Origin: a virus
IMG/VR virus record: IMGVR_UViG_3300010157_000035
Location: 1 to 64,000 of that record
DNA length: 64,000 nt
Reading direction: 5' to 3' (one strand)
A program made the position numbers and the translations under genes. Of the stretch, positions 8,000 through 27,261 are shown piece after piece. Positions within the stretch are counted from its first letter, which is position 1, and every line of letters begins with the position of its first letter. Under the pieces are notes generated by a model. That model was not told where the DNA came from, did not search any database, and was given only the letters and a program-made list of their open reading frames with translations.

Positions 8000-8073
8000 T
8001 GGTGCCCCTTGACAGAATCGAACTGCCAATTGATGATTACAAATCAACTGTTATACCATTTAACTAAAAGGGC
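8000..8073 (-). tRNA. tRNA-Thr (TGT)
   Basis: Cloverleaf with acceptor GCCCTTT/AAGGGGC, TTCGATT T-loop, anticodon loop TTTGTAA and encoded CCA. The anticodon stem has one T-T mismatch. Confidence 0.88.
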
Positions 8074-8117
8074 GTATTACTACTTATTTGTCACAAACCC
8101 TATCCATAAATATCATA

Positions 8118-8267
8118 ATGAAAATTTACTATGACAACACAGGATACCACACCAAATTTGAACAGCCTGAATATTACATCGATCATACTGGCTGGTATGC
8201 CACAATAATGATTTTACTTGGTATAGTTGCATTTGGTCTAGGTTTACTGATAGGGTTTATCTGGTAG
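8118..8267 (+). CDS. small single-span membrane protein (49 aa)
   Basis: ATG at 8118, TAG at 8265. An N-terminal polar half rich in Tyr/His is followed by one long hydrophobic helix (about residues 26-49, ending FGLGLLIGFIW). It lies between tRNA-Thr and tRNA-Arg on the opposite strand, and its stop codon overlaps the tRNA-Arg 3' end. A CATAAATA box 5 nt before the ATG resembles a T4 late promoter. Function unknown. Confidence 0.55.
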   Translation: MKIYYDNTGYHTKFEQPEYYIDHTGWYATIMILLGIVAFGLGLLIGFIW

Positions 8268-8339
8268 GACCTGCTGGATTCGAACCCACGACCCTGGAGG
8301 TAGAAGCTCCATGCTCTAATCCAACTGAGCTAAGGTCCT
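8262..8339 (-). tRNA. tRNA-Arg (TCT)
   Basis: Acceptor AGGACCT/AGGTCCT, anticodon stem TGGAG/CTCCA around CTTCTAC, encoded CCA. Confidence 0.93.
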
Positions 8340-8342
8340 AAT

Positions 8343-8432
8343 TGGCGGAGAGTGTGGGATTCGAACCCACGATAGTGTTGCCACTATGACGGTTTAGTAG
8401 ACCGTTGGTTTCAGCCGCTCACCCAACTCTCC
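8343..8432 (-). tRNA. tRNA-Ser with ACT anticodon
   Basis: Class II tRNA with a long variable arm, acceptor GGAGAGT/ACTCTCC, discriminator G and encoded CCA. The anticodon stem ACGGT/ACCGT encloses CTACTAA, giving anticodon ACT for AGY serine codons. Bacterial tRNAs for these codons normally have GCT, so A34 is unusual. Confidence 0.88.
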
Positions 8433-8493
8433 GTAATTTTACTGTCACACATAATTTGATAAATAAATTTATAAAACATAAACGGCGTATATA

Positions 8494-8925
8494 ATGTTAC
8501 ACACAATCACCACCATATCAGACGATCTTGCTAGCCTTATCAAGGACGATCCGGTGCGCCCAGAGATACCCTTGTCGGAACGTGTAAACTCAAACAGTCG
8601 AATTTACATGTTAAAGGATGGTGATCAAACATTAGCCGTTACCTGTGTTAAATTCTTAGAAACAATTCCTTCAGCAGTTGATGATTTGGTTGTGATAATT
8701 GGTGGTGCAACAACCGCGGTATTTTATACTATCTGGAGTTACACAGCCGGGGCCGGTCGAGACCTTATTGTAGCAGCTCAACGGTCAATTGAATCAGAGT
8801 TTCCAGAGATTCAAACCTACGTGACATTGAGTCCTAAGACCGAAATGGCTCGACGCTTTCATTTGAAAAACGGCGCTCGAGAATTGAGAGAAAACCGCGA
8901 CACCATCAACTACATCTACAAGTGA
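8494..8925 (+). CDS. GNAT-like acetyltransferase (putative)
   Basis: 143 residues, one of the few plus-strand genes. A central beta-rich part and the C-terminal PKTEMARRFHLKNGA stretch resemble the end of GNAT acetyltransferases (alpha helix followed by the final strand), but the acetyl-CoA loop (Q/RxxGxG/A) is not clear. It converges with the omega-like gene, whose stop lies 3 bp away. Confidence 0.45.
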   Translation: MLHTITTISDDLASLIKDDPVRPEIPLSERVNSNSRIYMLKDGDQTLAVTCVKFLETIPSAVDDLVVIIGGATTAVFYTIWSYTAGAGRDLIVAAQRSIESEFPEIQTYVTLSPKTEMARRFHLKNGARELRENRDTINYIYK

Positions 8926-8927
8926 CA

Positions 8928-9149
8928 TTATTTCACTTTGGACATGTATCGAATCATATCAATTTTTCCTTCTTGCATTTCCAACAAGGCATCAACAGCA
9001 GTAACATACGCACCGGTTTCTCTGGCTCGGCGTTTGAGTTCACGCAGGCGTTGCGACACAGCAATGACCATGTCATAACGTGAGTCAGCTAAACCAACAC
9101 ATTTTTCAAGGTCAATTTGGGTGCCGCGACTGAGAGTAACTGGTTTCAT
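8928..9149 (-). CDS. rpoZ: RNA polymerase omega subunit-like protein
   Basis: 73 residues that follow the bacterial omega pattern: the SRYDMVIAVSQRLRELKR segment (residues 23-40) matches the omega helix 'NRFDLVLVAARRARQM', and ALLEMQEGKI near residue 54 matches 'ALREIEEGLI'. Omega binds the beta' subunit and helps assembly and ppGpp response. A phage copy could alter host RNA polymerase for middle or late transcription. It has its own strong promoter and a GGAG Shine-Dalgarno. The rest of a phage RNA polymerase is not seen in this window. Confidence 0.7.
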   Translation of the reverse strand: MKPVTLSRGTQIDLEKCVGLADSRYDMVIAVSQRLRELKRRARETGAYVTAVDALLEMQEGKIDMIRYMSKVK

Positions 9150-9172
9150 AATATCTCCTGTTGTAAAAGTGT

Positions 9173-9201
9173 ATTATATACGAAAAAACGTTGCTGGTCA
9201 A
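9173..9201 (-). promoter_or_regulatory. sigma-70-type promoter of the omega-like gene
   Basis: TTGACC (9196-9201), 17 bp, TATAAT (9173-9178). Confidence 0.75.
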
Positions 9202-9206
9202 GCCCC

Positions 9207-9214
9207 TATAAATA
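9207..9214 (+). promoter_or_regulatory. T4-late-like box TATAAATA
   Basis: An exact T4 late promoter core 4 nt before the ATG at 9219 of the SGNH gene. If used it would give a near-leaderless transcript. Confidence 0.4.
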
Positions 9215-9218
9215 TTCA

Positions 9219-9917
9219 ATGACACCTCGACACTCTAATTCATCCTTGGCCAATCAAGAAATACTGTGGCACGGAACCGATTCGGAAGAGTTATACCAAA
9301 AAAATTTAGTTCGAAATCGAACACAATTGGATCAATACAATTGGATCAATCGACCAATCACATATAAATTTAACAGTCATGGATTTCGAGCAGATGAATT
9401 TGATTCAGCTGGCTCTGGTGTGATGTTCATTGGCTGTAGTCACACACTGGGTATGGGATTGCCTGTTGAGTCTACCTGGGCACATCGAGTCAGCACCGCG
9501 TTGAAACTCAAAAACTACAATCTTGGAGTAGGGGGTGCATCCAATGACACAGCTTTTCGTTTGGCACACCATTGGATAGAACAATTAAAACCGGACTTGG
9601 TAATTTTTTTATCTACAGAGAGAACCAGACTTGAACTACACATTGACGAAGACCAACTTTATGATCTCAGCTGTTGGCCAATTGGTTTTCCAATGGTAGA
9701 CTCTTTTGCAAGAAGTTGGCTCAGTAATGATACCAACAGCAGTATGAATTATTTAAAAAATACGCTGGCCATTAAACAACTGTGCAGTGATCGCGGCATC
9801 AAATACATTCAACAAGAAGCATCTGCTATCACAATGACAGATCGAGCCAGAGATTTACAACACTATGGTGAAATTACCAATCGTCACATTGCAGATATGT
9901 TTCTTTCAAAACTATAA
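9219..9917 (+). CDS. SGNH/GDSL hydrolase-like protein (plus strand)
   Basis: 232 residues from the ATG at 9219. Block I is GCSHTLG with the nucleophile Ser; GVGGASND provides the Gly/Asn blocks; a DLQH motif near the C-terminus supplies the Asp-His pair. SGNH enzymes are esterases or O-acetyl transferases/deacetylases acting mainly on glycans. It is followed within 5 bp by a glycosyltransferase-like gene, and seven similar proteins occur elsewhere in the window. Confidence 0.7.
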   Translation: MTPRHSNSSLANQEILWHGTDSEELYQKNLVRNRTQLDQYNWINRPITYKFNSHGFRADEFDSAGSGVMFIGCSHTLGMGLPVESTWAHRVSTALKLKNYNLGVGGASNDTAFRLAHHWIEQLKPDLVIFLSTERTRLELHIDEDQLYDLSCWPIGFPMVDSFARSWLSNDTNSSMNYLKNTLAIKQLCSDRGIKYIQQEASAITMTDRARDLQHYGEITNRHIADMFLSKL

Positions 9918-9921
9918 TAAA

Positions 9922-10947
9922 ATGAAGTTTTTTTTAGACAATTTTTGTTTCTCGTTGGTTGAATCGACCTCAGACGTATATAAAAACTATCAACACATTG
10001 ACCAAATTTCCAATGCATGTGATTTGATTTCAATTACGTTTTACAACAGTAACTATTCAGCACATGCCAAGGTGATTGAGCAATTGTTAGATAAAACTCG
10101 ATTGCTGATAGTGATAGTTGATGAACCTACCGGAGATTTTTATCAGTTTGTTCAGGCACACAGTAGCTCTAAAATTATTATTTTTTCTCCTGTGATTGCA
10201 AATTTTTCTACTACCAATGTTGTTCCATTGATCAGTTGGTTTGGTCAATCCAACAATTACTACGCGACCGACGCTTGGGCAAAAAAGTTACAGTCACAAC
10301 TGCATATTGAATCAAATCGGCCGAAACGCTTTGATTGTTTACTGGGCACAAAAAAATCACACAGAGATCAAATTGAACAACTGTATAAATCCAGTGGCTG
10401 TCAAGATCATATTGTGTATAACTATTTCAAAGACCAAATTGGTCAAGGCATATGGTCACAGAATATCAATGGTGCTCAAGCAACTACACATCGAGTTCGC
10501 ATGGACACGCACGGAAATTTTGTTGCAATCAGCAACTTGTTACCGGTTGATATCTACAATCAAACTTTTTATAGTATAGTGGCTGAAACGGTATGCACTA
10601 ATTATTACAGTCAATTTACTGAAAAAACTGCCAAACCCATTGTAGCTGGTAGACCTTTTATAGTGTTCAGCGGCCAGTATTTTTTACGTAATTTGCGCAG
10701 CTTAGGCTTTCAAACTTTTAACTCAGTGATTGACGAAAATTATGATACTATTGATGATGAGACTGAACGTTTTGCCCAGGCATGGCAGCAAGTTGAACTC
10801 TTGTGTCGGTTGGATCCCGAGACAGTGATGCAAAAGTTGCAGTCGGTACTCACACACAATCAACAACATTTTTTATCAACTGACTGGATGCATCCTCTTA
10901 CTGAATACTTACGATCTGTCGAAACTGGAGCAACGGGCTGGATTTGA
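9922..10947 (+). CDS. glycosyltransferase-like protein (GT10-like C-terminus)
   Basis: 341 residues starting at the ATG at 9922, just after the SGNH gene. The C-terminal part (IVAETVCTN, SQFTEKTAKPIVAGRPFIVF, then LRSLGFQTF) matches the nucleotide-sugar binding half of fucosyltransferase-like enzymes and is shared with the proteins at 51128 and 59945. The N-terminus is not recognised. Its last 22 bp overlap tRNA-Cys on the other strand, an unusual arrangement that may mean the true C-terminus is slightly degraded. Confidence 0.55.
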   Translation: MKFFLDNFCFSLVESTSDVYKNYQHIDQISNACDLISITFYNSNYSAHAKVIEQLLDKTRLLIVIVDEPTGDFYQFVQAHSSSKIIIFSPVIANFSTTNVVPLISWFGQSNNYYATDAWAKKLQSQLHIESNRPKRFDCLLGTKKSHRDQIEQLYKSSGCQDHIVYNYFKDQIGQGIWSQNINGAQATTHRVRMDTHGNFVAISNLLPVDIYNQTFYSIVAETVCTNYYSQFTEKTAKPIVAGRPFIVFSGQYFLRNLRSLGFQTFNSVIDENYDTIDDETERFAQAWQQVELLCRLDPETVMQKLQSVLTHNQQHFLSTDWMHPLTEYLRSVETGATGWI

Positions 10948-11003
10948 ACCAGCGGTTTTACGGATTTGCAATCCGTTGCATTGGGCCACTCTGCCACCGT
11001 TGC
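10926..11003 (-). tRNA. tRNA-Cys (GCA)
   Basis: Acceptor GCAACGG/CCGTTGC, anticodon stem ACGGA/TCCGT around TTGCAAA, discriminator T as expected for Cys, encoded CCA. Confidence 0.93.
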
Positions 11004-11010
11004 ATAATAC

Positions 11011-11086
11011 TGGTAGGACCTGCCAGGTTCGAACTGACGACATTCTGCTTGTAAGGCAGACACTCTACCAACTGAGCTAAGGTCCT
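11011..11086 (-). tRNA. tRNA-Val (TAC)
   Basis: Acceptor AGGACCT/AGGTCCT, anticodon stem TCTGC/GCAGA around CTTACAA, encoded CCA. Its 5' end overlaps the stop region of the following membrane protein gene by a few bases. Confidence 0.93.
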
Positions 11087-11328
11087 ACGTTGATCTTTCG
11101 CTTGATCCACATGCCAAACAAGGTGCCACAGTAGGCACCGGCCAAGGCCGGAATCAAGGCCCAGTGATCAGCAGTATAATTGATCACTGCTACACTGGCA
11201 GTGAAAGTCACTGCCATACTCCACCAAGCGGCCATCAAGGGTCGGTTGTCCTGGATCGACTTGACAAAATACACATAAATCAAGTCAGTAGCAAATACTG
11301 CAAAGAATGTAACCGCATATTCTAACAT
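11077..11328 (-). CDS. small membrane protein (83 aa)
   Basis: Three hydrophobic helices (about residues 3-20, 33-50 and 56-74) and a basic C-terminal tail (WIKRKINVGP). Its last bases overlap the 5' end of tRNA-Val on the same strand. Similar short DUF-type membrane proteins occur in large phages; function unknown. Confidence 0.6.
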   Translation of the reverse strand: MLEYAVTFFAVFATDLIYVYFVKSIQDNRPLMAAWWSMAVTFTASVAVINYTADHWALIPALAGAYCGTLFGMWIKRKINVGP

Positions 11329-11342
11329 AAATTACCTTGGGT

Positions 11343-11416
11343 TGGAGCGGAGTAGGAGAATCGAACTCCTGACTTGAACTTGGAAGGATCTCGTTTTACC
11401 ATTAAACTAACCCCGC
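11343..11416 (-). tRNA. tRNA-Gly (TCC)
   Basis: Acceptor GCGGGGT/ACTCCGC, D-arm TAGTTTAATGGTAAAAC typical of Gly, loop CTTCCAA, encoded CCA. The anticodon stem has two mismatches, so function may be weakened. Confidence 0.85.
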
Positions 11417-11422
11417 ATATTG

Positions 11423-12088
11423 TCAAACCGATTGCTCGGCATATTTTTTCATCAATGCATAGACCGGTTTGGGGCCTTTTGAACTGTGAAAATGTAACAG
11501 TTTGTATTGATTGGCATACTCAGGATCATACCGAATTCCGTCAAATTGAGAATTTATAGGCACTTGTTTAAAAACAAAATCCGGTTGGCTGCATATCATT
11601 TTAGAATAAACCAATTGATCTCTATCCCATTCGGTATCATTGCCCCACTCTTTATATAATTCTAACCCGACAGCCCAAACAGCTGGATCCATAGTATGAG
11701 GAAAATAACGCAATCCGCAATTGTAAAATTGCTCTCTTATTTCGGTAAACATTGCGAAATTTTTATATTGATCAAAAAAATCAATCGATCCAAATGCCAT
11801 GATATCTAAGTCAACAAAAAGTATATTGCATGGTTGCTCGGACCATAATTGATAAGTTCTCATAAAAACATCCCTATGCATTTCTTGAGCATAGTCCACT
11901 TCGCCTTCAAACAATACCAATTCCCATTCGCCACCTATGTGTTTTTGCAATGTAGGAAGAGTTAAGTCGTGCATTTTTTTATATACACGATAATCTGTAG
12001 ATGTTATAGACGGTTGTCCACTGGGATAAATTTCTACTCCATTGTTGATTTTGTATAGAGATCTTACTATATAATTTTTAATTTTCAT
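11423..12088 (-). CDS. GT-A-like glycosyltransferase (paralog of 27486 gene)
   Basis: 221 residues from the ATG at 12088, chosen because the N-terminus MKIKNYIVRSLYK then aligns with MKNYLIKGLHR of the paralog at 27486. Shared features are WELVLFE, a Cys-Asn-Ile-hydrophobic strand ending in an acidic DLDIM motif (the likely DxD metal/nucleotide-sugar site) and a C-terminal LLHFHSSKGPKP segment. Acceptor and donor unknown. Confidence 0.6.
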   Translation of the reverse strand: MKIKNYIVRSLYKINNGVEIYPSGQPSITSTDYRVYKKMHDLTLPTLQKHIGGEWELVLFEGEVDYAQEMHRDVFMRTYQLWSEQPCNILFVDLDIMAFGSIDFFDQYKNFAMFTEIREQFYNCGLRYFPHTMDPAVWAVGLELYKEWGNDTEWDRDQLVYSKMICSQPDFVFKQVPINSQFDGIRYDPEYANQYKLLHFHSSKGPKPVYALMKKYAEQSV

Positions 12089-13055
12089 TTGATTGGCCTT
12101 GTGACAATTTATCAAGCACCGGGGCAACAGACATTATTGTGTCTGTAAACACCTGTGAGCTATTACTTATTCCAACAAATTGTATCTGTTTAGCAAGTGA
12201 GTTTTGTTTGTTACTAACAACATTGCCCAATGGATAATTTCCATGAAAGTTGTTGGGGTATTTGCCCAGCCAATTTATAAATTCTGAACTTTGATATATA
12301 GTTTCCTTGCCGTTGTTATTGTCGATTTGAATACCTCCTGAATACATAGTTGGTGGACGAATGTCTATTTGCCCAGGATCGTCATGATCGGCAAACCCTG
12401 TGATAAAATCTTTTCCTAATAGATCTTTTTTGATCCAAACATCATATCCAGATAACCGTAAATATTCAAACATGGCATCGTCGATGATGACATCAACATC
12501 ATCATGATACACAGTGACATCATCATATTTCGAGGCATTAAAAATAAGTTCAGTGGTATGCCATCCTGGCTTACGAAATTTATCTTTATGCGGTGTATGC
12601 ACATACAGTTCCAAACGATGTATATTTTGATTAATTAGGTCTACTGTATAATTGAATTGTTCAACTTCATAAGGCACCCAGTCAAATGTAGGTTCTTGGT
12701 CCCGCACCCAGCGATTTCGCGTATCAGCTGCAGCGACACAGTAACGATGAAGTCTGTTCAGTATTTTTTGTGTATCCAAATTTAAAAGTGCAAGTTCATT
12801 TTTGGATACTGTTTCAGGAAACGGACTTATATAAGTTAAACTGTTAGCCAGCTCTATTGATTTCATTAGATTTTCAATACAGTCAGTAGACTTGATACTG
12901 TCTGTAACAAATGGCCACGACACAGATCTACCAGTTAGATGATATTTGTTAACTATCTTTAAGAAATGTTCTAGCCATTGATTAACAAATAAATTGTCTA
13001 GTAATTCTATTGCAAATGGGCCTAACTCGGATTGGAAATTAAGTATTTTTGGCAT
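12078..13055 (-). CDS. hypothetical protein (325 aa)
   Basis: No family recognised. The central part is rich in acidic residues and has the strand VYHDDVDVIIDD (about residue 180), which resembles a nucleotide-sugar or metal-binding turn; its position immediately upstream of, and overlapping, the GT-A-like gene suggests a partner role. A TAAATA box lies 6 nt upstream of the ATG at 13055. Confidence 0.5.
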   Translation of the reverse strand: MPKILNFQSELGPFAIELLDNLFVNQWLEHFLKIVNKYHLTGRSVSWPFVTDSIKSTDCIENLMKSIELANSLTYISPFPETVSKNELALLNLDTQKILNRLHRYCVAAADTRNRWVRDQEPTFDWVPYEVEQFNYTVDLINQNIHRLELYVHTPHKDKFRKPGWHTTELIFNASKYDDVTVYHDDVDVIIDDAMFEYLRLSGYDVWIKKDLLGKDFITGFADHDDPGQIDIRPPTMYSGGIQIDNNNGKETIYQSSEFINWLGKYPNNFHGNYPLGNVVSNKQNSLAKQIQFVGISNSSQVFTDTIMSVAPVLDKLSQGQSNEN

Positions 13056-13086
13056 ATTATGTATTTACGTTAAAGTACCATTGTAT

Positions 13087-13170
13087 TGGTGCGACTGGCT
13101 GGACTCGAACCAGCATGTCTTTTGACGGCAGATTTTAAGTCTGCTGAGTATACCATTTCTCCACAATCGC
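13087..13170 (-). tRNA. tRNA-Leu (TAA)
   Basis: Class II tRNA with variable arm; acceptor GCGATTG/CAGTCGC, anticodon stem GCAGA/TCTGC around CTTAAAA, encoded CCA. Confidence 0.93.
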
Positions 13171-13177
13171 GACTGAC

Positions 13178-13253
13178 TGGTACTCGGTGGGGGAATCGAA
13201 CCCCTCCTTCCTGCCGTGAAAGGGCAGTGTCCTAGCCGATAGACGAACCGAGC
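13178..13253 (-). tRNA. tRNA-Glu (TTC)
   Basis: Anticodon stem CTGCC/GGCAG around CTTTCAC; acceptor GCTCGGT/ACCGAGT with a G1-T72 wobble; encoded CCA. Confidence 0.92.
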
Positions 13254-13258
13254 ATGTT

Positions 13259-13344
13259 TGGTGGAGACGGCTGGAGTCGAACCAACAGTGCCTGAAGGCG
13301 GCGGATTTACAGTCCACTGGGGTTACCAATTTTCCTACATCTCC
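13259..13344 (-). tRNA. tRNA-Tyr (GTA)
   Basis: Class II tRNA; acceptor GGAGATG/CGTCTCC, anticodon loop CTGTAAA, long variable arm, encoded CCA. Confidence 0.92.
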
Positions 13345-13345
13345 A

Positions 13346-13750
13346 AAACATATAAGAACACACTCACGTTTCTGATGTCTCTGTTGGCTATGGGCCAACC
13401 GAATGTGTTCATATATGCTCTGCGTCCCCCGGCGGTAATTATAGTGTATCAGAAATTTCGTCAAGTTGCCCTAACTAGTCTGTTCGTCACTTACACCTTC
13501 CACCCGCTTCCCGACAGGGACCGTTCTCGCATTGCTAGCGCCGGTTAGGTTGGACCGCACATACATCCATGTTCTATCATGGCTTCTGTGTGAAACTTTT
13601 CGTTTCAGAACCACCCGTGGTTGTCATACCACTTCTCATCGTCTGGGTCAGACTAGCCAATGACAGTTGGCACGTTAGGTGGGCTGGCCCCATAACGGGA
13701 TACCACTTAACCTGAACTGTCTTATGCATTTATGTTCAGGCACCCTAACT
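13346..13750 (-). ncRNA. large structured noncoding RNA (GOLLD-like candidate)
   Basis: About 400 nt between tRNA-Asp and tRNA-Tyr with no convincing ORF but dense complementary stems on the minus strand: CTGAAC/GTTCAG, GGGCC-type hairpin, GCCAA/TTGGC, GTCTG/CAGAC, AACCAC/GTGGTT, GAAAC/GTTTC, CCATG/CATGG, GTTGGC/GCCAAC, and a closing GAACACA/TGTGTTC helix near the 3' end. GTTAGG/CCTAAC segments occur more than once and could form alternative long-range helices. Large ornate RNAs such as GOLLD sit beside phage tRNAs, which is the basis for the comparison; I could not match a consensus. A weak promoter (13438-13464, 15-bp spacer) sits inside it. Confidence 0.6.
13438..13464 (-). promoter_or_regulatory. 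possible promoter for tRNA-Tyr/Glu/Leu
   Basis: TTGACG (13459-13464) and TATAAT (13438-13443) with a short 15-bp spacer, so weaker than the others in this window. Confidence 0.35.
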
Positions 13751-13825
13751 TGGCGGCTTCAAGGAGAATCGAACTCCTATTAGTGGCGTGACAAGCCACC
13801 GTACTAACCATTATACTATGAAGCC
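13751..13825 (-). tRNA. tRNA-Asp (GTC)
   Basis: Acceptor GGCTTCA/TGAAGCC, anticodon stem GTGGC/GCCAC around TTGTCAC, discriminator G, encoded CCA. Confidence 0.93.
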
Positions 13826-13832
13826 AAACTCT

Positions 13833-13909
13833 TGGTCGGAGTACGAGGGATCGAACCTCGGACCTCCTGGTCCCAAACCAGGCGCACTACCAGGCTGTGC
13901 TACACTCCG
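13833..13909 (-). tRNA. tRNA-Pro (TGG)
   Basis: Acceptor CGGAGTG/TACTCCG, anticodon stem CCTGG/CCAGG around TTTGGGA, encoded CCA. Confidence 0.93.
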
Positions 13910-13911
13910 AC

Positions 13912-14115
13912 TTATTTCTTATCCAACTTGGGTTCTTCGTAAACCACTTCTTTTTCTTCTTTTTGCACATAAGCTGGAAAAAAATTCCAACCAAAACTTT
14001 TCCAATATTTGTGAATGATATTATTAATAACAACTGCCGCTATTACAATAATAATAAATCCCAGTGCTGTTAAAATACTACCTGCTAAAAATACTGCCGC
14101 TTGATCAATGTCCAT
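13912..14115 (-). CDS. small single-span membrane protein (67 aa)
   Basis: A long hydrophobic helix (about residues 8-34, rich in Ile/Val/Ala) followed by an aromatic patch and a charged tail (QKEEKEVVYEEPKLDKK). It is embedded between tRNA-Met and tRNA-Pro, with an AAGG Shine-Dalgarno, so it is probably on the tRNA transcript. Function unknown. Confidence 0.6.
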   Translation of the reverse strand: MDIDQAAVFLAGSILTALGFIIIVIAAVVINNIIHKYWKSFGWNFFPAYVQKEEKEVVYEEPKLDKK

Positions 14116-14129
14116 GTTTACCTTTCGAT

Positions 14130-14203
14130 TGGTTGCGGATGATGGAATCGAACCACCAACTGGAGCTTATGAGACTCCCGAGATACCGTTTCTCTAATCC
14201 GCG
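14130..14203 (-). tRNA. tRNA-Met (CAT), initiator-like
   Basis: Anticodon loop CTCATAA. With the standard 7-bp acceptor the first pair is a C1-A72 mismatch and the D-stem has A11-T24, both initiator hallmarks; however the three G-C pairs of an initiator anticodon stem are absent (stem GGAGT/GCTCC). Encoded CCA. Confidence 0.85.
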
Positions 14204-14214
14204 ATTGAATTTGT

Positions 14215-14243
14215 ATTTTACACTAACTCCTATATCTTGTCAA
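14215..14243 (-). promoter_or_regulatory. sigma-70-type promoter for tRNA-Met and downstream tRNAs
   Basis: TTGACA (14238-14243), 17 bp, TAAAAT (14215-14220), lying between tRNA-Trp and tRNA-Met. Confidence 0.65.
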
Positions 14244-14261
14244 ACTATTTTTGGCATACCC

Positions 14262-14325
14262 CCAGAGACTCGAACTCCGACGAACGGTTTTGGAGACCGC
14301 TATGCTGCCATTACATCAGGGATAC
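14262..14325 (-). tRNA. tRNA-Trp (CCA)
   Basis: Anticodon loop CTCCAAA on stem GCGGT/ACCGT, acceptor GTATCCC/GGGGTAT with wobble pairs, discriminator G, encoded 3' CCA. The variable and D regions look slightly short, so the fold should be checked. Confidence 0.78.
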
Positions 14326-14330
14326 AAAAA

Positions 14331-14936
14331 CTACATCGTAGGACCATTTCCGTTCCTAAAACCTACTGCACCACCTTCTGCTTCAATTCGCTTGATCACG
14401 TCTTCAAACAAGATGGGTGCAAAATCAGTTTGCTCTACACAGACACAATGATAACGAACGTCGTTCTCATCACTGTATAAAACTTCTCCGGTTCTAGCAT
14501 CAACACCACGAGCCCGCTTGACACGGTTGGCATGCAAGTGTCCGTGAATGTTAACACCAAAACGACCAAGACTTTCTGCGTGAACAGGAATATGACTCAA
14601 GATCATACCATTCATCACATGGTATGCACGAAGTTCACGAAAATGTTCACGATAGTCGGCATCTTTGAAGATGTCATGATTACCACGGATCAACACCTTA
14701 TCACCGTTCAATCTATGCATAATACCCAAGGCCTTACGATTGATCACAACGTCACCCAAATGGTAGACCTTGTCTGTGGGCTTAACACGTTCGTTCCAGG
14801 CCTTGACCATGGCTTCGTCCATTTCTTCAGGACTATCCCACGGCCTTAACTTTGTAACACCGTCATTACGGGTGAAGCGGCAGACGCCGGTATGTCCGAA
14901 ATGCGTGTCGCTTACTAAAAATACACTAGGCATCAT
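14331..14936 (-). CDS. calcineurin-like metallophosphoesterase
   Basis: 201 residues with all the metal-binding blocks of this superfamily in order: SDTHFGH near the N-terminus, YHLGDVV, IRGNHD, a later ILSHIP and the final HGHLHANR. Stand-alone phosphoesterases of this size are common in large phages and may act on nucleotides or phosphoproteins. Its promoter and an AAAGGAGGG Shine-Dalgarno precede the ATG. Its 3' end is next to tRNA-Trp. Confidence 0.85.
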   Translation of the reverse strand: MMPSVFLVSDTHFGHTGVCRFTRNDGVTKLRPWDSPEEMDEAMVKAWNERVKPTDKVYHLGDVVINRKALGIMHRLNGDKVLIRGNHDIFKDADYREHFRELRAYHVMNGMILSHIPVHAESLGRFGVNIHGHLHANRVKRARGVDARTGEVLYSDENDVRYHCVCVEQTDFAPILFEDVIKRIEAEGGAVGFRNGNGPTM

Positions 14937-14963
14937 GCCCTCCTTTCTTCTAACTGTTACTCT

Positions 14964-14992
14964 ATTATAGCCGAATAGCTATTTTGGGTCAA
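14964..14992 (-). promoter_or_regulatory. sigma-70-type promoter of the metallophosphoesterase gene
   Basis: TTGACC (14987-14992), 17 bp, TATAAT (14964-14969). Confidence 0.75.
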
Positions 14993-15023
14993 CCAAATTG
15001 TTTGTAATACTTTTGTATTACCA

Positions 15024-15329
15024 TCAAGCAGTTAGCCAATATTCGTTTTTTTCCAGCACCAAACTTTCTGCTCCGTCGTGTTCATCAATACGGAAACGAT
15101 CTCCGGTTGAGACCCAATTGACCTCTAAGTCTTCTAATCCTCCGCAATAAACATCTGGATGCTTTAATTCCATATAGGTAAGAACTTTATCAAACGCTTG
15201 TTGTTCGACCCATTCCGCAATACTGGGATCGTAAAGCAATTCCTCATTACCGTGCCAGCTGTACCAACCAGCCCCATAACCGGGTGATACCAACACAGCC
15301 ACCTTGCCATCACGAATTAGTTTGTTCAT
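15024..15329 (-). CDS. hypothetical protein (101 aa)
   Basis: Starts MNKLIRDGKVAVLVSPGYGAGW; Gly/Trp-rich N-terminus and acidic C-terminal half. Similar small proteins of unknown function occur in phages and Proteobacteria, but I cannot assign a named family. Its ATG overlaps the end of the short upstream gene at 15310-15468, so the two are coupled. Confidence 0.6.
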   Translation of the reverse strand: MNKLIRDGKVAVLVSPGYGAGWYSWHGNEELLYDPSIAEWVEQQAFDKVLTYMELKHPDVYCGGLEDLEVNWVSTGDRFRIDEHDGAESLVLEKNEYWLTA

Positions 15330-15468
15330 TGTTCTTTACTTTTTTTACTGCTTCCATTTGAGCTATCATTGCGTCAACTTGCACACGGGCACGTTCGAGC
15401 TTGCGTTCAATTAAGGCCACACGCTCTTCGGGTGCTAAAAAAATTTTATCTTGTATTTTATTTTCCAT
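15310..15468 (-). CDS. short hypothetical protein (52 aa), coiled-coil-like
   Basis: ATG at 15468, TGA at 15310. After MENKIQDKIFLAPEE a continuous charged helix runs to the C-terminus (LIERKLERARVQVDAM and beyond) with hydrophobic spacing suggestive of a coiled coil. Overlaps the next gene by 20 bp. Preceded by GGAAGAAAAAT as a modest Shine-Dalgarno. Confidence 0.55.
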   Translation of the reverse strand: MENKIQDKIFLAPEERVALIERKLERARVQVDAMIAQMEAVKKVKNNEQTNS

Positions 15469-15480
15469 ATTTTTCTTCCA

Positions 15481-15507
15481 ATAAAAAACCCCGGAATGTT
15501 CAGTTTC
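15481..15507 (-). terminator. Rho-independent terminator
   Basis: On the minus strand a CCCCG/CGGGG-based stem (AACCCCG ... CGGGGTT) with a 12-nt loop is followed by TTTTTT. It would end transcripts of the 34-aa gene just upstream. Confidence 0.75.
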
Positions 15508-15538
15508 GGGGTTGTTGAATAAAAGTTAAAACTTACTG

Positions 15539-15643
15539 CTATTCAAAACCCACTCTACGATCTTCACAGCCATAGACCCATAAATCGGCTTGTCCAATTA
15601 CTGGGTTATTTCCTAAAGAAGGATGTAATTTATTAGTTTTCAT
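15539..15643 (-). CDS. very short ORF (34 aa) with its own promoter and terminator
   Basis: ATG at 15643, TAG at 15539. The peptide MKTNKLHPSLGNNPVIGQ... continues to CEDRRVGFE. Although tiny, it is framed by a consensus promoter whose -10 box ends 6 nt before the ATG and by a Rho-independent terminator, so it is a monocistronic unit. It may be a leaderless small protein or the unit may be a small RNA. Confidence 0.5.
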   Translation of the reverse strand: MKTNKLHPSLGNNPVIGQADLWVYGCEDRRVGFE

Positions 15644-15649
15644 AGTAGT

Positions 15650-15678
15650 ATTATACATGGTTATTTATGATTTGTCAA
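15650..15678 (-). promoter_or_regulatory. sigma-70-type promoter, leaderless configuration
   Basis: TTGACA (15673-15678), 17 bp, TATAAT (15650-15655); 6 nt separate the -10 box from the ATG. Confidence 0.78.
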
Positions 15679-16397
15679 CTGGCATATTGCCAATTGCGTA
15701 TCTTGTCGGCATAGATTTCTGCCAAATATTCCTGACCAGCCGGACTACCGTGGTATCCAGGGTCTGTGCTTTCAAACGGCCAATTGGTTATTGCATAATT
15801 AGGTGTTTCTTGGTAGTCAAGGGTCAAGTATCGATCGTCTACTACTTTAGGTATAGCTTGGCGTATATTTCCGGTATTCCAAAGTTCGCCGGCGATAATC
15901 AAAAATGGTATACCAGAATAGAACAACTGCATAATGCCATCGCGCATGATCCATTCATCTTGCTGTCGCTTCCAATTGACATCGTATATGTGGTTAATGT
16001 ATTGTCGAATCGCCTCCTGTGTATTTTTATCTAGTTCACCTGTGCGATATGGATTGTTATAATTCCCAACCAACGTAGTTATATTTTCACAAATCATGCG
16101 ATATGGATTTGTGCCATAGTTAACATTATCAATACCGGCTGTTTTATCGTAGCCACAGTCAGTGGCAGCAGGAATCTCTATACGATCACAAAATGTTGGT
16201 GCCACAATGACAAAATCAGGCTGTTGGCGTAGTGCTTCATCTATTTGTATACGGATACCACCGTTACTGCATCCTTGCCGTGCCAGTATCTCTACGTCCC
16301 AACCCAACCGCTTGGCTGTTTGATGGCCATAGCCTGTTCCTGGCCTGTCAATGCTATCAGCACTCAAACTACATCCGCATACTATTAATTTTGCCAT
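15675..16397 (-). CDS. SGNH/GDSL hydrolase-like protein
   Basis: 240 residues from the ATG at 16397. Block I CGCSLSADS holds the candidate nucleophile Ser; GCSNGG in the Gly/Asn block; near the C-terminus DPGYHGSPAG provides a possible Asp-His, with non-standard spacing. Part of the eight-member SGNH set of this window. The gene follows a bidirectional terminator, and its own promoter is not obvious. Confidence 0.6.
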   Translation of the reverse strand: MAKLIVCGCSLSADSIDRPGTGYGHQTAKRLGWDVEILARQGCSNGGIRIQIDEALRQQPDFVIVAPTFCDRIEIPAATDCGYDKTAGIDNVNYGTNPYRMICENITTLVGNYNNPYRTGELDKNTQEAIRQYINHIYDVNWKRQQDEWIMRDGIMQLFYSGIPFLIIAGELWNTGNIRQAIPKVVDDRYLTLDYQETPNYAITNWPFESTDPGYHGSPAGQEYLAEIYADKIRNWQYAS

Positions 16398-16420
16398 TCT
16401 GCTAACTCCGTTGATCATTA

Positions 16421-16443
16421 AAAAAGGCTCCGAAGAGCCTTTT
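16421..16443. terminator. bidirectional Rho-independent terminator
   Basis: AGGCTC-CGAA-GAGCCT stem with A/T runs on both sides. On the minus strand it ends the outer-membrane-protein gene, with TTTTTT after the stem. Confidence 0.85.
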
Positions 16444-16459
16444 GTTAGATTTTTAAATT

Positions 16460-17008
16460 TTAGAAACCGCGTGTGTAATTAACGGTCCAGATCTTTTGAT
16501 CGTTATCGCCATTGACACGATCATATCTTACAGCAACAGTATCAACTTTAGTCACTGCATAAGCCAATGTATAGCGCATGGTGTGTGTTTGGTCGTTGTT
16601 GCCGCTGTCAACAGCAGTACGAGTGCGCCAACCCACTTTGGCTGTCACCGGACCAAATGGAACACTAACTCCAGGCTCGATTGAGTAGTATGTAAAGTTG
16701 GCAGTATTGCTATACTTTTGTCCCAATGCAACACGAGTGTAGCCGTTTACAATACCATACAACGGTGCAGTAACAGTGCCACCTGTTTCGATGCGTGTGC
16801 TCAAGGCATTGGTGTTGTCGGTTACAGCATTACTGATAAGCACGTCACCGGCAAAGTTTTGATTGATTTCTTTCTTAACACCTAACAGATATACCTGTTG
16901 TGCGTTTCCAGTAACGTTGTTGATGTGTTGACTTTCTAGGGTCACGCTGTCGCCAGCAACGGCCAAACCTGATACAGCCAAAGACAAGATTGCGAAGATT
17001 TTCTTCAT
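16460..17008 (-). CDS. outer-membrane beta-barrel protein with signal peptide
   Basis: 182 residues: Sec signal peptide (1-18, cleaved after GLAVA), then alternating amphipathic strands (for example YGIVNGYTRVALGQ, FTYYSIEPGVSVPFG, THTMRYTLAYAV) and a C-terminal TVNYTRGF ending in Phe, the hallmark of BAM-inserted barrels. It is a small porin-like or OmpA/Lom-like barrel. A phage-made outer-membrane protein could block superinfection or change permeability. Followed by a terminator; a TAAATAATATG box lies about 35 nt upstream of the ATG. Confidence 0.75.
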   Translation of the reverse strand: MKKIFAILSLAVSGLAVAGDSVTLESQHINNVTGNAQQVYLLGVKKEINQNFAGDVLISNAVTDNTNALSTRIETGGTVTAPLYGIVNGYTRVALGQKYSNTANFTYYSIEPGVSVPFGPVTAKVGWRTRTAVDSGNNDQTHTMRYTLAYAVTKVDTVAVRYDRVNGDNDQKIWTVNYTRGF

Positions 17009-17106
17009 TTAGTTTTTCCTTATAAGAATGTGGACGTGTGCCCAACATATTATTTAGTGGTTTTACTGATACACAGTAATTTTTATCCACTCAAACAGTC
17101 GAAAAG

Positions 17107-17126
17107 AGACCCGCCGAAGCGGGTTC
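17107..17126 (-). terminator. terminator after tmRNA
   Basis: ACCCGC-TTCG-GCGGGT hairpin on the minus strand followed by CTCTTTT, directly after the coding piece of the tmRNA. Confidence 0.8.
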
Positions 17127-17445
17127 TGGTAGTTTCTGTTACGAGGCATTTCCTGCCCTATCGCGGCGATTAAACTGCGAAAGATTCGGCTTTCACTGTG
17201 CGAGCAGAGAACTTGACGTTCTTACCAGAAACAGTTACTTCGCCTGTAGATGCTTTTGCATTTACTTGATTTGCTTGATTTACGGTCATCGCCTACCGTG
17301 CTGTCCACTCTGTTACTCTTTGCCCTGTCGAAAACCAAGTCATCCCCACCTAAATATACCCCATACACTTAGGTGGAGATGCCGGGAGTCGAACCCGGGT
17401 CCAGAACACTTTTCTCTTTGCTTCTTCCCTTACGGGCTTTACAGC
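17108..17445 (-). ncRNA. ssrA: circularly permuted (two-piece) tmRNA
   Basis: The acceptor piece comes first on the minus strand: T-arm CCGGG-TTCGACT-CCCGG and 3' end CATCTCC-A (about 17373-17400). A roughly 20-nt linker (17348-17371) follows, then the coding piece starting GGGGATGACTTGG (17347). GGGGATG pairs with CATCTCC and contains the G3-U70 pair recognised by alanyl-tRNA synthetase; TTTTCGACAGGG is the conserved tmRNA D-region. A pseudoknot-like ACGGT/ACCGT stem precedes the tag reading frame. The 5' limit of the acceptor piece is uncertain. Confidence 0.88.
17170..17259 (-). other. tmRNA tag reading frame (candidate, 29 codons)
   Basis: Starting at a GCA resume codon at 17257-17259, the frame reads AKASTGEVTV... 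and ends AESFAV-stop (TAA at 17170-17172). That is far longer than the usual 8-20-residue tag and lacks the common (A)LAA ending, though the terminal Phe-Ala-Val is hydrophobic. A later resume codon would shorten the tag. Confidence 0.5.
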
Positions 17446-17456
17446 AATACTTTTAT

Positions 17457-17780
17457 TTACCCATTTAATCTTGGCGCTAGGTCCTTATAACTTGCTACAC
17501 CCGACGCCACAGCACCAACTACAACTTGTTTGAATACATTTTCTCTGCCACGAGTTCTATAATAAGATGCCTTTTGTTTACTAGTTAAGAAAGCAACTCT
17601 CATTTCAAGTGCTCCAATGTCTGTGTTAGAATTTCCATATTTGGTTTCCGCTAAAAACGAAAGAGTTCTTTTATAAGTTTGTCCTTTCCAATTTTTCACG
17701 GGCCCTAATATCAGTTTCAAAGACTCAAACAGCTCTTTGTCTTCGCCATTGTTCCAAGTATATAGGTGTTTTCTTGCCAT
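17457..17780 (-). CDS. hypothetical basic protein (107 aa) fused to the tmRNA unit
   Basis: A basic, helical protein (MARKHLYTWNNGEDKELFESL...) with no recognised family. Its stop codon sits directly before the acceptor piece of the tmRNA on the same strand, and it has its own consensus promoter, so gene and tmRNA are probably one transcript. The basic, Arg/Lys-rich make-up with a predicted helix-turn pattern would fit nucleic-acid binding, but this is a guess. It lies inside the segment between the two acceptor-piece copies, hence may have arrived with the HNH element. Confidence 0.6.
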   Translation of the reverse strand: MARKHLYTWNNGEDKELFESLKLILGPVKNWKGQTYKRTLSFLAETKYGNSNTDIGALEMRVAFLTSKQKASYYRTRGRENVFKQVVVGAVASGVASYKDLAPRLNG

Positions 17781-17855
17781 AATAATTTCCTTTGGTTAAT
17801 ACCCTAGCAGTAAGGGCGGATTAAAAATATATCGAAATAATATCAATATGCTAAC

Positions 17856-17884
17856 AGTATAGCATAGTTGTCGAATCTTGTCAA
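17856..17884 (-). promoter_or_regulatory. sigma-70-type promoter driving ORF 17780-17457 and tmRNA
   Basis: TTGACA (17879-17884), 17 bp, TATACT (17856-17861). It fires away from the divergent HNH gene. Confidence 0.75.
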
Positions 17885-17915
17885 CCATTTACTGTGGTTT
17901 CGACTAAATAATATT

Positions 17916-18392
17916 ATGCTACACAAACACCACATTGTCCCAAAATATTTAGGAGGCACAGATGATCCAAGTAATCTTGTTGATCTCACTGTAGACCAAC
18001 ATGCTGAAGCACATCGTTTGTTATACGAACAACACGGTAACTGGCAAGATTATGTTGCCTGGCAAGGATTAAGCAAACTTGATGCTAACTTTGATGCTGC
18101 CAAACAGTCAATGATCGAAGGTGGTAGAAAAGGTGCCGCAAGGTCTAACCTTCGTTGGAAGGATCCGATACAACGAGAATTAGCCAGTAAGAAGATGAAA
18201 GTAGTATGTGCCAATAGAGGCAAAACTTGGCAGGGCAAACTATACGAAATAACTCACCCAGATGGGACTGTGGAAACAGTTGAAGGATTACGCCAGTGGT
18301 GTGTAGACCGAGGCTATAATCCTAACAACTTTGGAAATGCTTGTTTGAGAGGTAGTGTAACCAATGGTGGATTTATGGTCCGCAGGGTCTAA
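17916..18392 (+). CDS. HNH endonuclease (probable homing endonuclease)
   Basis: 158 residues from the ATG at 17916 (an earlier start at 17868 would run through the divergent promoter). The N-terminus MLHKHHIVPKYLGG and DPSNLVDLT...HAEAHRLLYE form the HNH metal-finger: HH, N and a distal H. The C-terminal part (ITHPDGTVETVEGLRQWC) is a NUMOD-like DNA-binding helix seen in phage homing enzymes. It is the only plus-strand gene in this stretch and stops one base before a second, truncated tmRNA acceptor sequence. Confidence 0.8.
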   Translation: MLHKHHIVPKYLGGTDDPSNLVDLTVDQHAEAHRLLYEQHGNWQDYVAWQGLSKLDANFDAAKQSMIEGGRKGAARSNLRWKDPIQRELASKKMKVVCANRGKTWQGKLYEITHPDGTVETVEGLRQWCVDRGYNPNNFGNACLRGSVTNGGFMVRRV

Positions 18393-18393
18393 C

Positions 18394-18450
18394 ACCCCCG
18401 TCCAGAATGCCTTCACTCGGAAGGGATTACAACAATTCTTTACAGACTAT
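18394..18450 (-). pseudogene. truncated copy of the tmRNA acceptor piece
   Basis: On the minus strand CTGTAAAG... leads through a CCTTC/GAAGG hairpin to TTCTGGACGGGGGTG, which parallels CTGTAAAG...TTCTGGACCCGGGTTCG of the intact copy near 17395-17445 but breaks off in the T-arm where the HNH gene begins. It looks like the 5' remnant of an acceptor piece split by insertion. It overlaps the last codons of the gene ending at 18440. Confidence 0.6.
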
Positions 18451-18706
18451 TAACTACGGCCGATTCCGGCGGCGGAGTGAACGTATTGCAAAATGCTACA
18501 AATTCGTTCGCTGCATCCGACGACACCCATGCAAATGTGCTGACGCCATTGACTGTGGCTGGAAAAGACCCAAAATTTCCAGCCGCAAACATTGCACCTT
18601 TTTTGGACTGGACTAATGCTGATTCAGTATCAGTCAATGATCTGCCCCATGTAATTACGCTTTCTGCCGTAGCAGGAAAGAGAAAAGTAGTATCGACTTT
18701 TGACAT
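18440..18706 (-). CDS. hypothetical protein (88 aa), paralog of next upstream gene
   Basis: A soluble protein beginning MSKVDTTFLFPATAESVITW and ending NTFTPPPESAVVNSL. It shares layout and the C-terminal (T/N)PPP motif with the gene at 18739-19023 (GFNPPPTSVSLE), so the two are diverged tandem duplicates. No family recognised. Confidence 0.6.
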   Translation of the reverse strand: MSKVDTTFLFPATAESVITWGRSLTDTESALVQSKKGAMFAAGNFGSFPATVNGVSTFAWVSSDAANEFVAFCNTFTPPPESAVVNSL

Positions 18707-18738
18707 ATAAAACTCCTTTGATTATTTTAACTTGTAAC

Positions 18739-19023
18739 TCATTTGTAACTCATGTCTTCTAAACTTACACTTGTTGGCGGCGGATTAAATCCATTCACAA
18801 TTGATATGTATTCTTCCGCATCAGACAAATGAGACCACATGGTCGTTGGGGTGTAGTGACTGGCATCAACTTGACGATCAGTGACCATACAGGTTGATCC
18901 ATCCCAAAGGGTATTTTTCAATTTGATTTTTATCAAAACTTCTTCTTCTTCAGTTAACTCTCGATCAAAAACCACTTTGGTTCGAGCAAACGCAAGAAAT
19001 GTTGCTGATGCTACACATGCCAT
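18739..19023 (-). CDS. hypothetical protein (94 aa), paralog of 18440 gene
   Basis: Begins MACVASATFLAFARTKVVFD; a middle acidic helix (LTEEEEVLIKIKLK) and the C-terminal NGFNPPPTSV motif align with the 18440 gene. Both use an AAGGAG Shine-Dalgarno. Function unknown. Confidence 0.6.
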   Translation of the reverse strand: MACVASATFLAFARTKVVFDRELTEEEEVLIKIKLKNTLWDGSTCMVTDRQVDASHYTPTTMWSHLSDAEEYISIVNGFNPPPTSVSLEDMSYK

Positions 19024-19061
19024 AACAAAACTCCTTTTTTGTGTCTATTATTTATCATTTA

Positions 19062-19265
19062 TTAAGCAGGCATAATATTTGATGCCTGCTTGCCTTTTGG
19101 GCCCTGAACCAAGTCAAATTTTACCACTTGGTTTTCTTTTAATGTTTTGAATCCATTAATATTGATTGCTGAAAAATGTGCAAATACATCCTCACCCCCG
19201 TCATCTGGTGTAATGAATCCGAAACCTTTTGCGTCATTAAACCATTTTACTTTACCTACTACCAT
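19062..19265 (-). CDS. csp: cold-shock domain protein
   Basis: A 67-residue single-domain [18 protein letters not shown] (RNP1) and DVFAHFSAI (RNP2) are intact, and the length equals that of CspA. It binds single-stranded RNA/DNA and melts secondary structure, plausible as a translation or transcript chaperone during infection. A leader of about 30 nt links it to a consensus promoter. Confidence 0.93.
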
Positions 19266-19302
19266 AATATACTGCTTCCTTTTAAATTAAACATGAGTGC
19301 TA

Positions 19303-19331
19303 ATTGTAACCTTTTACAACCTTGCTGTCAA
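19303..19331 (-). promoter_or_regulatory. sigma-70-type promoter of the cold-shock gene
   Basis: TTGACA (19326-19331), 17 bp, TACAAT (19303-19308). Confidence 0.75.
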
Positions 19332-19371
19332 CCTCGAGATTGCCTCGTACGATCATGTTATTTAGCATGTT

Positions 19372-19446
19372 TGGTGGGCCAGCTTGGAATTGAACCAAGA
19401 CTCGACCGATTATGAGTCGGTTGCTTTACCATTAAGCTACTGGCCC
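19372..19446 (-). tRNA. tRNA-Met or tRNA-Ile2 (CAT)
   Basis: Acceptor GGGCCAG/CTGGCCC, anticodon stem ACCGA/TCGGT around CTCATAA, encoded CCA. It could be an elongator Met or an Ile tRNA whose C34 is converted to lysidine; sequence alone does not decide. Confidence 0.9.
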
Positions 19447-25648: not shown

Positions 25649-26404
25649 TTAAGATTTCTTGAACACAGGAATAGGATTCATTTTGTGTAAACTACGAGCT
25701 TGTATAGCACGGAATTTTTCTAGATTAGCCACAAGTTCTGGCTCTGTGGATTGAATTTCTCCAAGATCCATACGCATAGCAACCTCAAGATCAGCATAGC
25801 TCATGCCCAGTTGATCTTCGTCAGTGCGTCCATCATCCCATAAGCCATCTGTGGGCGCCGCGTTGATAATATCATCTAGCACTCCTAGCTCACGTCCCAT
25901 TTGCCATACTTCTGTTTTGTAACAGTCAGCAATAGGACTAATATCCACGCCACCGTCACCATACTTGGTATAAAATCCTACACCAAAATCTTCAACTTTG
26001 TTGCCGGTGCCTACCACAAGTCCACTTACGCTTTGAGCAATTTGATACAAGGTAACCATACGTAGTCGACTGCGGCTGTTGGCCAATCCTAACAAGTTTG
26101 GATAAGTGGCTAACCGACTTTCAAACTCATCAAAGGTACTAGTTAAATCAATAATGTCGTGGCGCACATTATCAAAGTTCTGTGTCAACCAAACACCTTG
26201 TTGCAGACTGAGATCGTGTAAGTCGGGACGTTGACGTATAGGCATAGTTACTGCCACTGTGTGTAATCCAGTTCTAGCGCAGAGTGCGCTGACTACAGCA
26301 CTATCAATACCACCACTGATACCTACAACTAAGGATTTCATGCCGGCCTGTTCAGCATAGTCTCGAATCCAATCAGTAATACGATCTTGTAATGTTATAG
26401 GCAT
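25649..26404 (-). CDS. nadE: NAD synthetase, ammonia-dependent
   Basis: About 251 residues, stand-alone synthetase without a glutaminase domain. The PP-loop is GISGGIDSAVVSALC; GTGNKVEDFGVGF and YTKYGDGGVDISPIADCYKTEVW-like C-terminal motif are NadE signatures. It adenylates deamido-NAD and adds ammonia to make NAD. Start at 26404 (TGATG overlap with QueE). A phage NadE could sustain NAD for replication ligase or counter NAD-depleting defences (inference). Confidence 0.85.
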   Translation of the reverse strand: MPITLQDRITDWIRDYAEQAGMKSLVVGISGGIDSAVVSALCARTGLHTVAVTMPIRQRPDLHDLSLQQGVWLTQNFDNVRHDIIDLTSTFDEFESRLATYPNLLGLANSRSRLRMVTLYQIAQSVSGLVVGTGNKVEDFGVGFYTKYGDGGVDISPIADCYKTEVWQMGRELGVLDDIINAAPTDGLWDDGRTDEDQLGMSYADLEVAMRMDLGEIQSTEPELVANLEKFRAIQARSLHKMNPIPVFKKS

Positions 26405-27261
26405 CAGGTCCCCCATTCATTCTTAAAGAGTGGAACTTGTAGCCTGTCACTGTAACGAAGTCCGTGTTTCATTGCCAATAATGCTACATTACGATTGTTC
26501 ATAGCGTATACCGTTTCAACACCACCCACTGGCATTAGATAAACGTGTCCGGTAAAACCCGCCTTACGATATGCGGCGATAGCACACTCAGCATCTGCAA
26601 AGTCTTGTTCAGTGGCAATAACAAATTTTAAATATGCTGTGCCATATTCTTCATAGTCACAAACTACCTTGGGCAAGATGGCTTCTTCCCACTTTTCTCC
26701 ACTGCATGGCAGTTTGGCACTGACACTAAATGTAATCTCTCGCCAAAAGTCTCGGTCATGATGGTGTGCCCAGGTATGCAAATACGAAGCAAACTCTTTG
26801 GATATCTCTTGAGTGCCATTGGTTTCAAACGTAATTTCTTTAAGCCCTTGCATCTTGGGATGATCTAACAAATCTGGGTAAGCACGTTGCCAACCTAACA
26901 ACGGCTCACCACCTGTAATGACCAGGTGTTCATCACGCCATTCACCGTGTGGAAGTATTTCCATAATACGTTCTACAATGGCATCAGTTGTAAGCATTGG
27001 ACTTAGGTCTTTAAAACTAGGGTGCCAACTGGCATAACTGTCGCAACCCGTGCTTACTAATGGTAGTTCTTCATATCGATTATATAGATGTGCTACTTCA
27101 GCAAGCTCTTCGGCTTCTGCGCTCAACTCACCACGTGGCATGCCAAAGCCAGCGCATTTGAAGTTGCATCCAAACACACGCAAGAATACCGACGGCACAC
27201 CCATATAGCGTCCTTCGCCTTGCACTGAATAGAATAATTCTGCTATTTTTAATTTACTCAT
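26404..27261 (-). CDS. queE: 7-carboxy-7-deazaguanine synthase (QueE), insertion variant
   Basis: 285 residues, radical SAM. The N-terminus IAELFYSVQGEGRYMG is the QueE signature, and VITGGEPLL matches the SAM-binding GGE motif. The cluster cysteines are unusual: C32 and C36 are in GCNFKC, but position +7 is not Cys; the third Cys may be C73 in TGCDSYASWHPS after a roughly 36-residue insertion. QueE converts carboxy-tetrahydropterin to CDG on the way to 7-deazaguanine bases. Fused in operon with NadE; overlaps the upstream short gene. Confidence 0.82.
   Translation of the reverse strand: MSKLKIAELFYSVQGEGRYMGVPSVFLRVFGCNFKCAGFGMPRGELSAEAEELAEVAHLYNRYEELPLVSTGCDSYASWHPSFKDLSPMLTTDAIVERIMEILPHGEWRDEHLVITGGEPLLGWQRAYPDLLDHPKMQGLKEITFETNGTQEISKEFASYLHTWAHHHDRDFWREITFSVSAKLPCSGEKWEEAILPKVVCDYEEYGTAYLKFVIATEQDFADAECAIAAYRKAGFTGHVYLMPVGGVETVYAMNNRNVALLAMKHGLRYSDRLQVPLFKNEWGT

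Follow-up and report, generated by a model that had tools for sequence, protein, structure and literature searches.

A 64,000-nt stretch of DNA (the window), taken from a partial IMG/VR virus record of 130,621 bases, carries a permuted, two-piece tmRNA gene on its minus strand. ARAGORN calls the gene (tmRNA*) at 17463-17079 with the tag AKASTGEVTVSGKNVKFSARTVKAESFAV, and the proposal of a phage-encoded permuted tmRNA made in the first-pass annotation, for which a covariance-model search had been suggested as a check, is borne out by two Rfam models, both above gathering: tmRNA_permuted (RF04321; 17427-17170 (-), 98.5 bits, E 6e-18, cut-off 47) and beta_tmRNA (RF01850; 89.1 bits, cut-off 84). 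RF01850 is also the best model of its clan in the long-tag relatives L123, L129, L157, L168, L251 and L309. Two-piece tmRNAs have previously been counted in phage genomes (53 cases; PMC9004378), and a single Rfam model now spans all permuted forms (PMC11915505); since permuted phage tmRNAs are already known, the permuted layout is ordinary here. The elements of the locus are the following:

17079..17463 (-), permuted (two-piece) tmRNA gene (ARAGORN; RF04321, RF01850)
17372..17398 (-), 3' acceptor half: T-arm CCGGG-UUCGACU-CCCGG (17398-17382), acceptor 3' strand CAUCUCC (17381-17375), A73 (17374) and CC (17373-17372) (sequence, Rfam alignment, fold)
17348..17371 (-), intervening linker of 24 nt, presumed removed (19-bp precursor helix)
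17327..17347 (-), 5' half: acceptor 5' strand GGGGAUG (17347-17341), then UUUUCGAC (17334-17327) (sequence, Rfam alignment)
17170..17259 (-), tag frame of 29 codons plus stop, AKASTGEVTVSGKNVKFSARTVKAESFAV; resume codon GCA 17259-17257, stop UAA 17172-17170 (ARAGORN; viral tag family)
17195..17235 (-), RNA stem-loop within the tag frame (pair counts, consensus fold, codon choice)
17158..17183 (-), helix around the tag stop codon (pair counts, 24 distinct sequences)
17105..17124 (-), intrinsic terminator ACCCGC-UUCG-GCGGGU followed by CUCUUUU, also given as 17124-17109 (terminator scan)
17856..17884 (-), promoter-like TTGACA-17-TATACT with TG before the -10 (promoter scan, 11/12 matches)

The acceptor half precedes the coding half, with the intervening segment between them, in both the ARAGORN call and the Rfam alignment. 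The original extent of 17108-17445 placed the locus correctly, the gene reaching slightly past both coordinates, and the linker described as about 20 nt is present and measures 24 nt. The claimed G3-U70 acceptor pair is recovered in the pairing of GGGGAUG with CAUCUCC, and the 29-codon frame running from GCA to SFAV stands as first described. In the precursor, one 19-bp helix spans both halves (17381-17341), the 66-nt fold reaching -30.5 kcal/mol (z -4.6 against shuffles). The promoter-like site would drive a 107-aa ORF (17780-17457) together with the tmRNA. Elsewhere in the window, 14 tRNA genes are scattered around the tmRNA (8000-19446 (-)), and a phage gene at 3127-4038 (-) matches the TctC receptor of tripartite tricarboxylate transporters (PF03401).

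The encoded 3' end reads CC-U, so that the terminal A of CCA is absent from the gene and CCA addition would be needed. A search of the long-tag phage records turned up no CCA-adding enzyme, so the host enzyme would have to serve; the phages Phosso and Atu_ph07 have one. Likewise, no SmpB was found in 16 phage records, so that host SmpB would be used. In the proposed working of the molecule, cleavage of the transcript at 17371-17348 would yield two pieces, one acceptor and one coding; CCA addition would complete the 3' end, and the tmRNA, charged through G3-U70 by the alanyl-tRNA synthetase of the host, would be carried by host SmpB to stalled ribosomes, where translation would resume at GCA 17259 and add a 29-residue tag ending in SFAV.

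A virus-borne family of long tags

A typical tmRNA tag has about 10 residues and an LAA end. A scan with a pattern built from the tRNA-like part alone recovered at least 120 viral stretches, and among the matches listed the ARAGORN tag lengths of viral permuted tmRNAs were bimodal: 84 tags fell within 8-14 aa and 19 within 22-33 aa, with none in between. The long class among these matches comprises several unrelated peptides, the window's tag falling within one large family. Collected through patterns anchored on the resume region or the tag end rather than on the tag core, this family spans 99 viral contigs and 66 distinct frames, all of which hold VTVS[GA]K[NGS][VILF][KR]F or a close variant; variation within the fuller core, GEVTVS[GA]K[NGS][VILF][KR]F, is conservative. 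The unusual length is thus conserved across a family of viral tmRNAs and is no slip of annotation. The window's tag, ending in SFAV, lacks the C-terminal Ala-Ala of the ssrA degron, and its relatives end mostly in LAV or FAV, with a few in LAA or VLA.

When the core pattern alone was scanned across 84,980 bacterial and archaeal species, no tmRNA carrying the tag core was found. Because of this absence from the bacterial and archaeal tmRNAs scanned, the tag family looks virus-specific, with the caveat that its hosts may be unsequenced. Six matches to the core pattern in genome contigs were set aside, none being an ARAGORN tmRNA and all reading as protein frames or unrelated sequence, and a weak likeness to cyanobacterial tags (ANNIVRFSRQTAPVAA) was dropped. 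In the literature searched, neither this tag family nor a stem-loop lying within a tag was found to be described.

Proposed constraint on the tag as RNA and as peptide

The length of the frame is explained by an additional RNA stem-loop that it traverses and that the viral lineage keeps. This element, ACUGU..GGUAAGAAC-GUCAA-GUUCUCUGCU..ACAGU (inner part 17226-17203), is formed by the codons for S-G-K-N-V-K-F-S-A. Across 49 distinct sequences, 98% of cells in the nine pairs of the inner helix are paired, with one pair taking the forms C-G, U-G, U-A and A-U and two others alternating between A-U and G-U, and the RNAalifold consensus fold recovers the same helix. The covariation score of the stem-loop was matched by 6 of 500 shuffles, a figure to be read in the light of the kinship among the sequences, which shuffling leaves in place. 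Conservation of the outermost helix is poor (81% paired, with one pair broken in 31 of the 49). Furthermore, the folding energy of the tag interior shows no clear excess over synonymous recodings (mean z -0.74, with p<0.05 in only 10% of 49 frames), so that the case for the RNA element is carried by codon choice and pair conservation.

The strongest sign that the stem-loop may be under selection comes from its codons. The Phe codon of the stem is TTC in 66/66 frames against 30% genome-wide, and its two Lys codons are AAG in 64/66 and 63/66 against about 30%, while synonymous positions in the loop and immediately flanking the stem vary freely. In one member (L228) and its relatives, AAC GTC AAG is replaced by GGA ATT CGT (N-V-K to G-I-R), with both pairing and residue type retained. 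For other viral long-tag families (L012, L099, L106 and L019), hairpins that differ in sequence are predicted inside the frame.

A further element lies at the end of the frame, where, among 24 distinct sequences, pair (-7,+10) of the helix around the stop codon is AU in 16, GC in three, CG in two and UA in one. The third base of the Leu (TTA/TTG) or Phe (TTC/TTT) codon thereby meets all four Watson-Crick partners, and this covariation ties the SFAV ending to RNA pairing. Equally, the peptide itself is narrowly confined: only NTN codons (V, I, L or F) occur at the loop position, the core Lys is replaced by Arg only, and the core Ser is kept through both TCN and AGT codons. It can therefore be proposed, from comparison of sequences, that constraints act on the tag at both the peptide and the RNA level, a view held with moderate confidence since part of the peptide conservation could reflect needs of the RNA loop. 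Our reading of the locus is that the tmRNA is functional and its long tag dual-coded.

Clp proteases and the possible fate of tagged proteins

Four long-tag phages of 317-347 kb (G002, G215, G216 and G217) and a fifth of 158 kb (G218) encode ClpX, a ClpA-like unfoldase and ClpP, and no SmpB was found in these five records. The ClpX of G002 has an NCBIfam equivalog score, and the ClpA-like unfoldase of the long-tag records has an IGF loop. The record from which the window derives (G000/L318) carries a ClpA-like unfoldase of 758 aa at 74140-74361 and its neighbourhood, adjoining a DnaJ-like gene beyond the window; it lies about 57 kb from the tmRNA, which matches the spacing in G002 (about 60 kb). 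This partial record yielded neither ClpX nor ClpP, an absence that is uninformative because their G002 counterparts lie beyond its reach. Three long-tag phages (L320, L324 and L331) each have two different ClpP genes, one near bacterial ClpP and one divergent. Genes with radical-SAM-like cysteine motifs occur near clpP in the relatives L323, L324 and L331, and radical SAM genes lie in the window at 43307-44368 (-) and 26404-27261 (-), the second below the Pfam cut-off.

In E. coli, ClpX contacts the ssrA end through Tyr153, Val154, Thr199, Val202, Arg228 and His230 (PMC7652416). In the five long-tag phages, His230 is lost (V, T, Q, S and T at this position), and four of them carry Ser or Ala in place of Thr199. 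Thr199, Val202 and His230 are all kept in G221-G223, whose tags end in MVA, and the ClpX of Phosso, whose tag ends in LAA, keeps Thr199 and has Asn at position 230. Circumstantially, these changes match what would be expected had tag and protease changed together, in a sample that is small and made up of related phages. Together with the Clp genes of the relatives, they also bear circumstantially on the suggestion in the first-pass annotation that a phage tmRNA might redirect host rescue or employ another degradation tag.

It is possible, if doubtful, that this lineage of large phages runs its own tag-and-degrade pathway, in which a phage-only, dual-coded tag is a degron read mainly by phage ClpXP/ClpAP rather than by the host protease, the tag-binding loop having changed with the tag, so that phage clean-up is kept separate from that of the host. 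The three Clp genes in the five phages, the ClpA-like gene in the window's record, the substitutions at positions 230 and 199 set beside the retention of both residues in G221-G223 and of Thr199 in Phosso, and the precedent of Mesoplasma florum, where a longer tag is read by the cell's own Lon (PMC8138137, PMC9382460), all speak for such a pathway. However, the genomes are few and related to one another, phage ClpX may act on other substrates, ClpX and ClpP were not found in the window's own partial record, and Clp genes also occur in Atu_ph07 without a permuted tmRNA match and in Phosso with an ordinary tag, so that the Clp set did not arise for the long tag. That the stem-loop alone is selected, as a structural stand-in for a lost pseudoknot with the residues merely following, is rather unlikely: stem codons fixed to the third base against genome preference, a covarying stop-codon helix, and other viral long-tag families differing in both peptide and predicted hairpin agree with it, but a Ser kept through TCN and AGT, substitutions limited to V to I/L/F and K to R, and the N-V-K to G-I-R swap that preserves residue type count against it.

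The C-terminus, AV instead of AA, could also suggest a stabilising or dead-end tag that escapes host proteases, freeing ribosomes and sparing partial phage proteins. The first-pass annotation had set the tag apart from LAA-type tags, which is fair for the final residues (LAV/FAV), although endings of this kind are themselves variants of the LAA degron; the LAV/FAV end is still small and hydrophobic, a few relatives end in LAA or VLA, and AAV remains a degron in E. coli, which makes a stabilising role improbable. Finally, tmRNA genes often serve as integration sites (PMC11915505), which would fit a captured host fragment or functionless pseudogene, but the gene is complete, has its own terminator, belongs to a family of 99 contigs with compensatory changes, and has a tag core for which no bacterial source was found by the core pattern in 84,980 bacterial and archaeal species, leaving this origin highly improbable. 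The locus is probably a working permuted tmRNA of a large uncultivated phage, the tagged fragments most likely being degraded by a Clp protease of phage or host.

A virus-only tag family about three times the usual length, with an in-frame stem-loop, would indicate that constraints on RNA and on peptide can act together in shaping a tag. Should the phage Clp enzymes read it, this would be a second natural case, after Mesoplasma, of a tag and protease changing together. To our knowledge, such a co-changed pair would be the first in a virus, and it could supply an orthogonal degradation tag for laboratory bacteria.

Relation to known systems

The hints as to the host diverge, the DNA polymerase, nearest to those of the jumbo phages Phosso (50%) and Atu_ph07 (47%), pointing to rhizobial jumbo phages and the RNA model to betaproteobacteria. 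With the betaproteobacterial permuted tmRNA (RF01850; general model RF04321) the phage gene shares the order of halves, the acceptor and T-arm, UUUCGAC, the resume context UAAAUGCA and the processing layout, but differs in its tag of 29 codons (10 being the commonest length there), its extra in-frame stem-loop, its FAV end and the unencoded terminal A of CCA. Plasmid-borne permuted tmRNAs occur in Cupriavidus (L214 2945-3277, tag ANDKRFALAA) and Pandoraea (L215 2945-3279, tag GKNDAFYYEAA), and a genome of the cyanobacterial phylum (G160) has a second, weaker permuted tmRNA match (C1:926965-927111, 61.6 bits) beside its main one.

Among phages, methylophage Melnitz and other aquatic phages likewise carry a two-piece tmRNA (PMC9004378), that of Melnitz being of alphaproteobacterial type with a riboswitch, and the accessible text of that account describes no such long-tag family. 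The Sinorhizobium jumbo phages AP-J-162, for which tmRNA plus Clp genes have already been listed (PMC11242549), and Phosso (PV764938) share a related DNA polymerase and the joint presence of tmRNA and Clp genes, whereas the Phosso tmRNA is of alpha type with a 13-aa tag, ANDNVSTKVALAA. This permuted Phosso gene is unannotated (L183 4199-3597; PV764938.1 349596-350198) and was missed by ARAGORN, its intervening segment being about 400 nt. The tmRNA and Lon of Mesoplasma florum (PMC8138137, PMC9382460) likewise combine a longer tag with a changed end, there matched by a changed protease; that system is cellular, employs Lon rather than Clp and has a tag ending in NYAFA, whereas the tag-protease pairing of the phage is putative.
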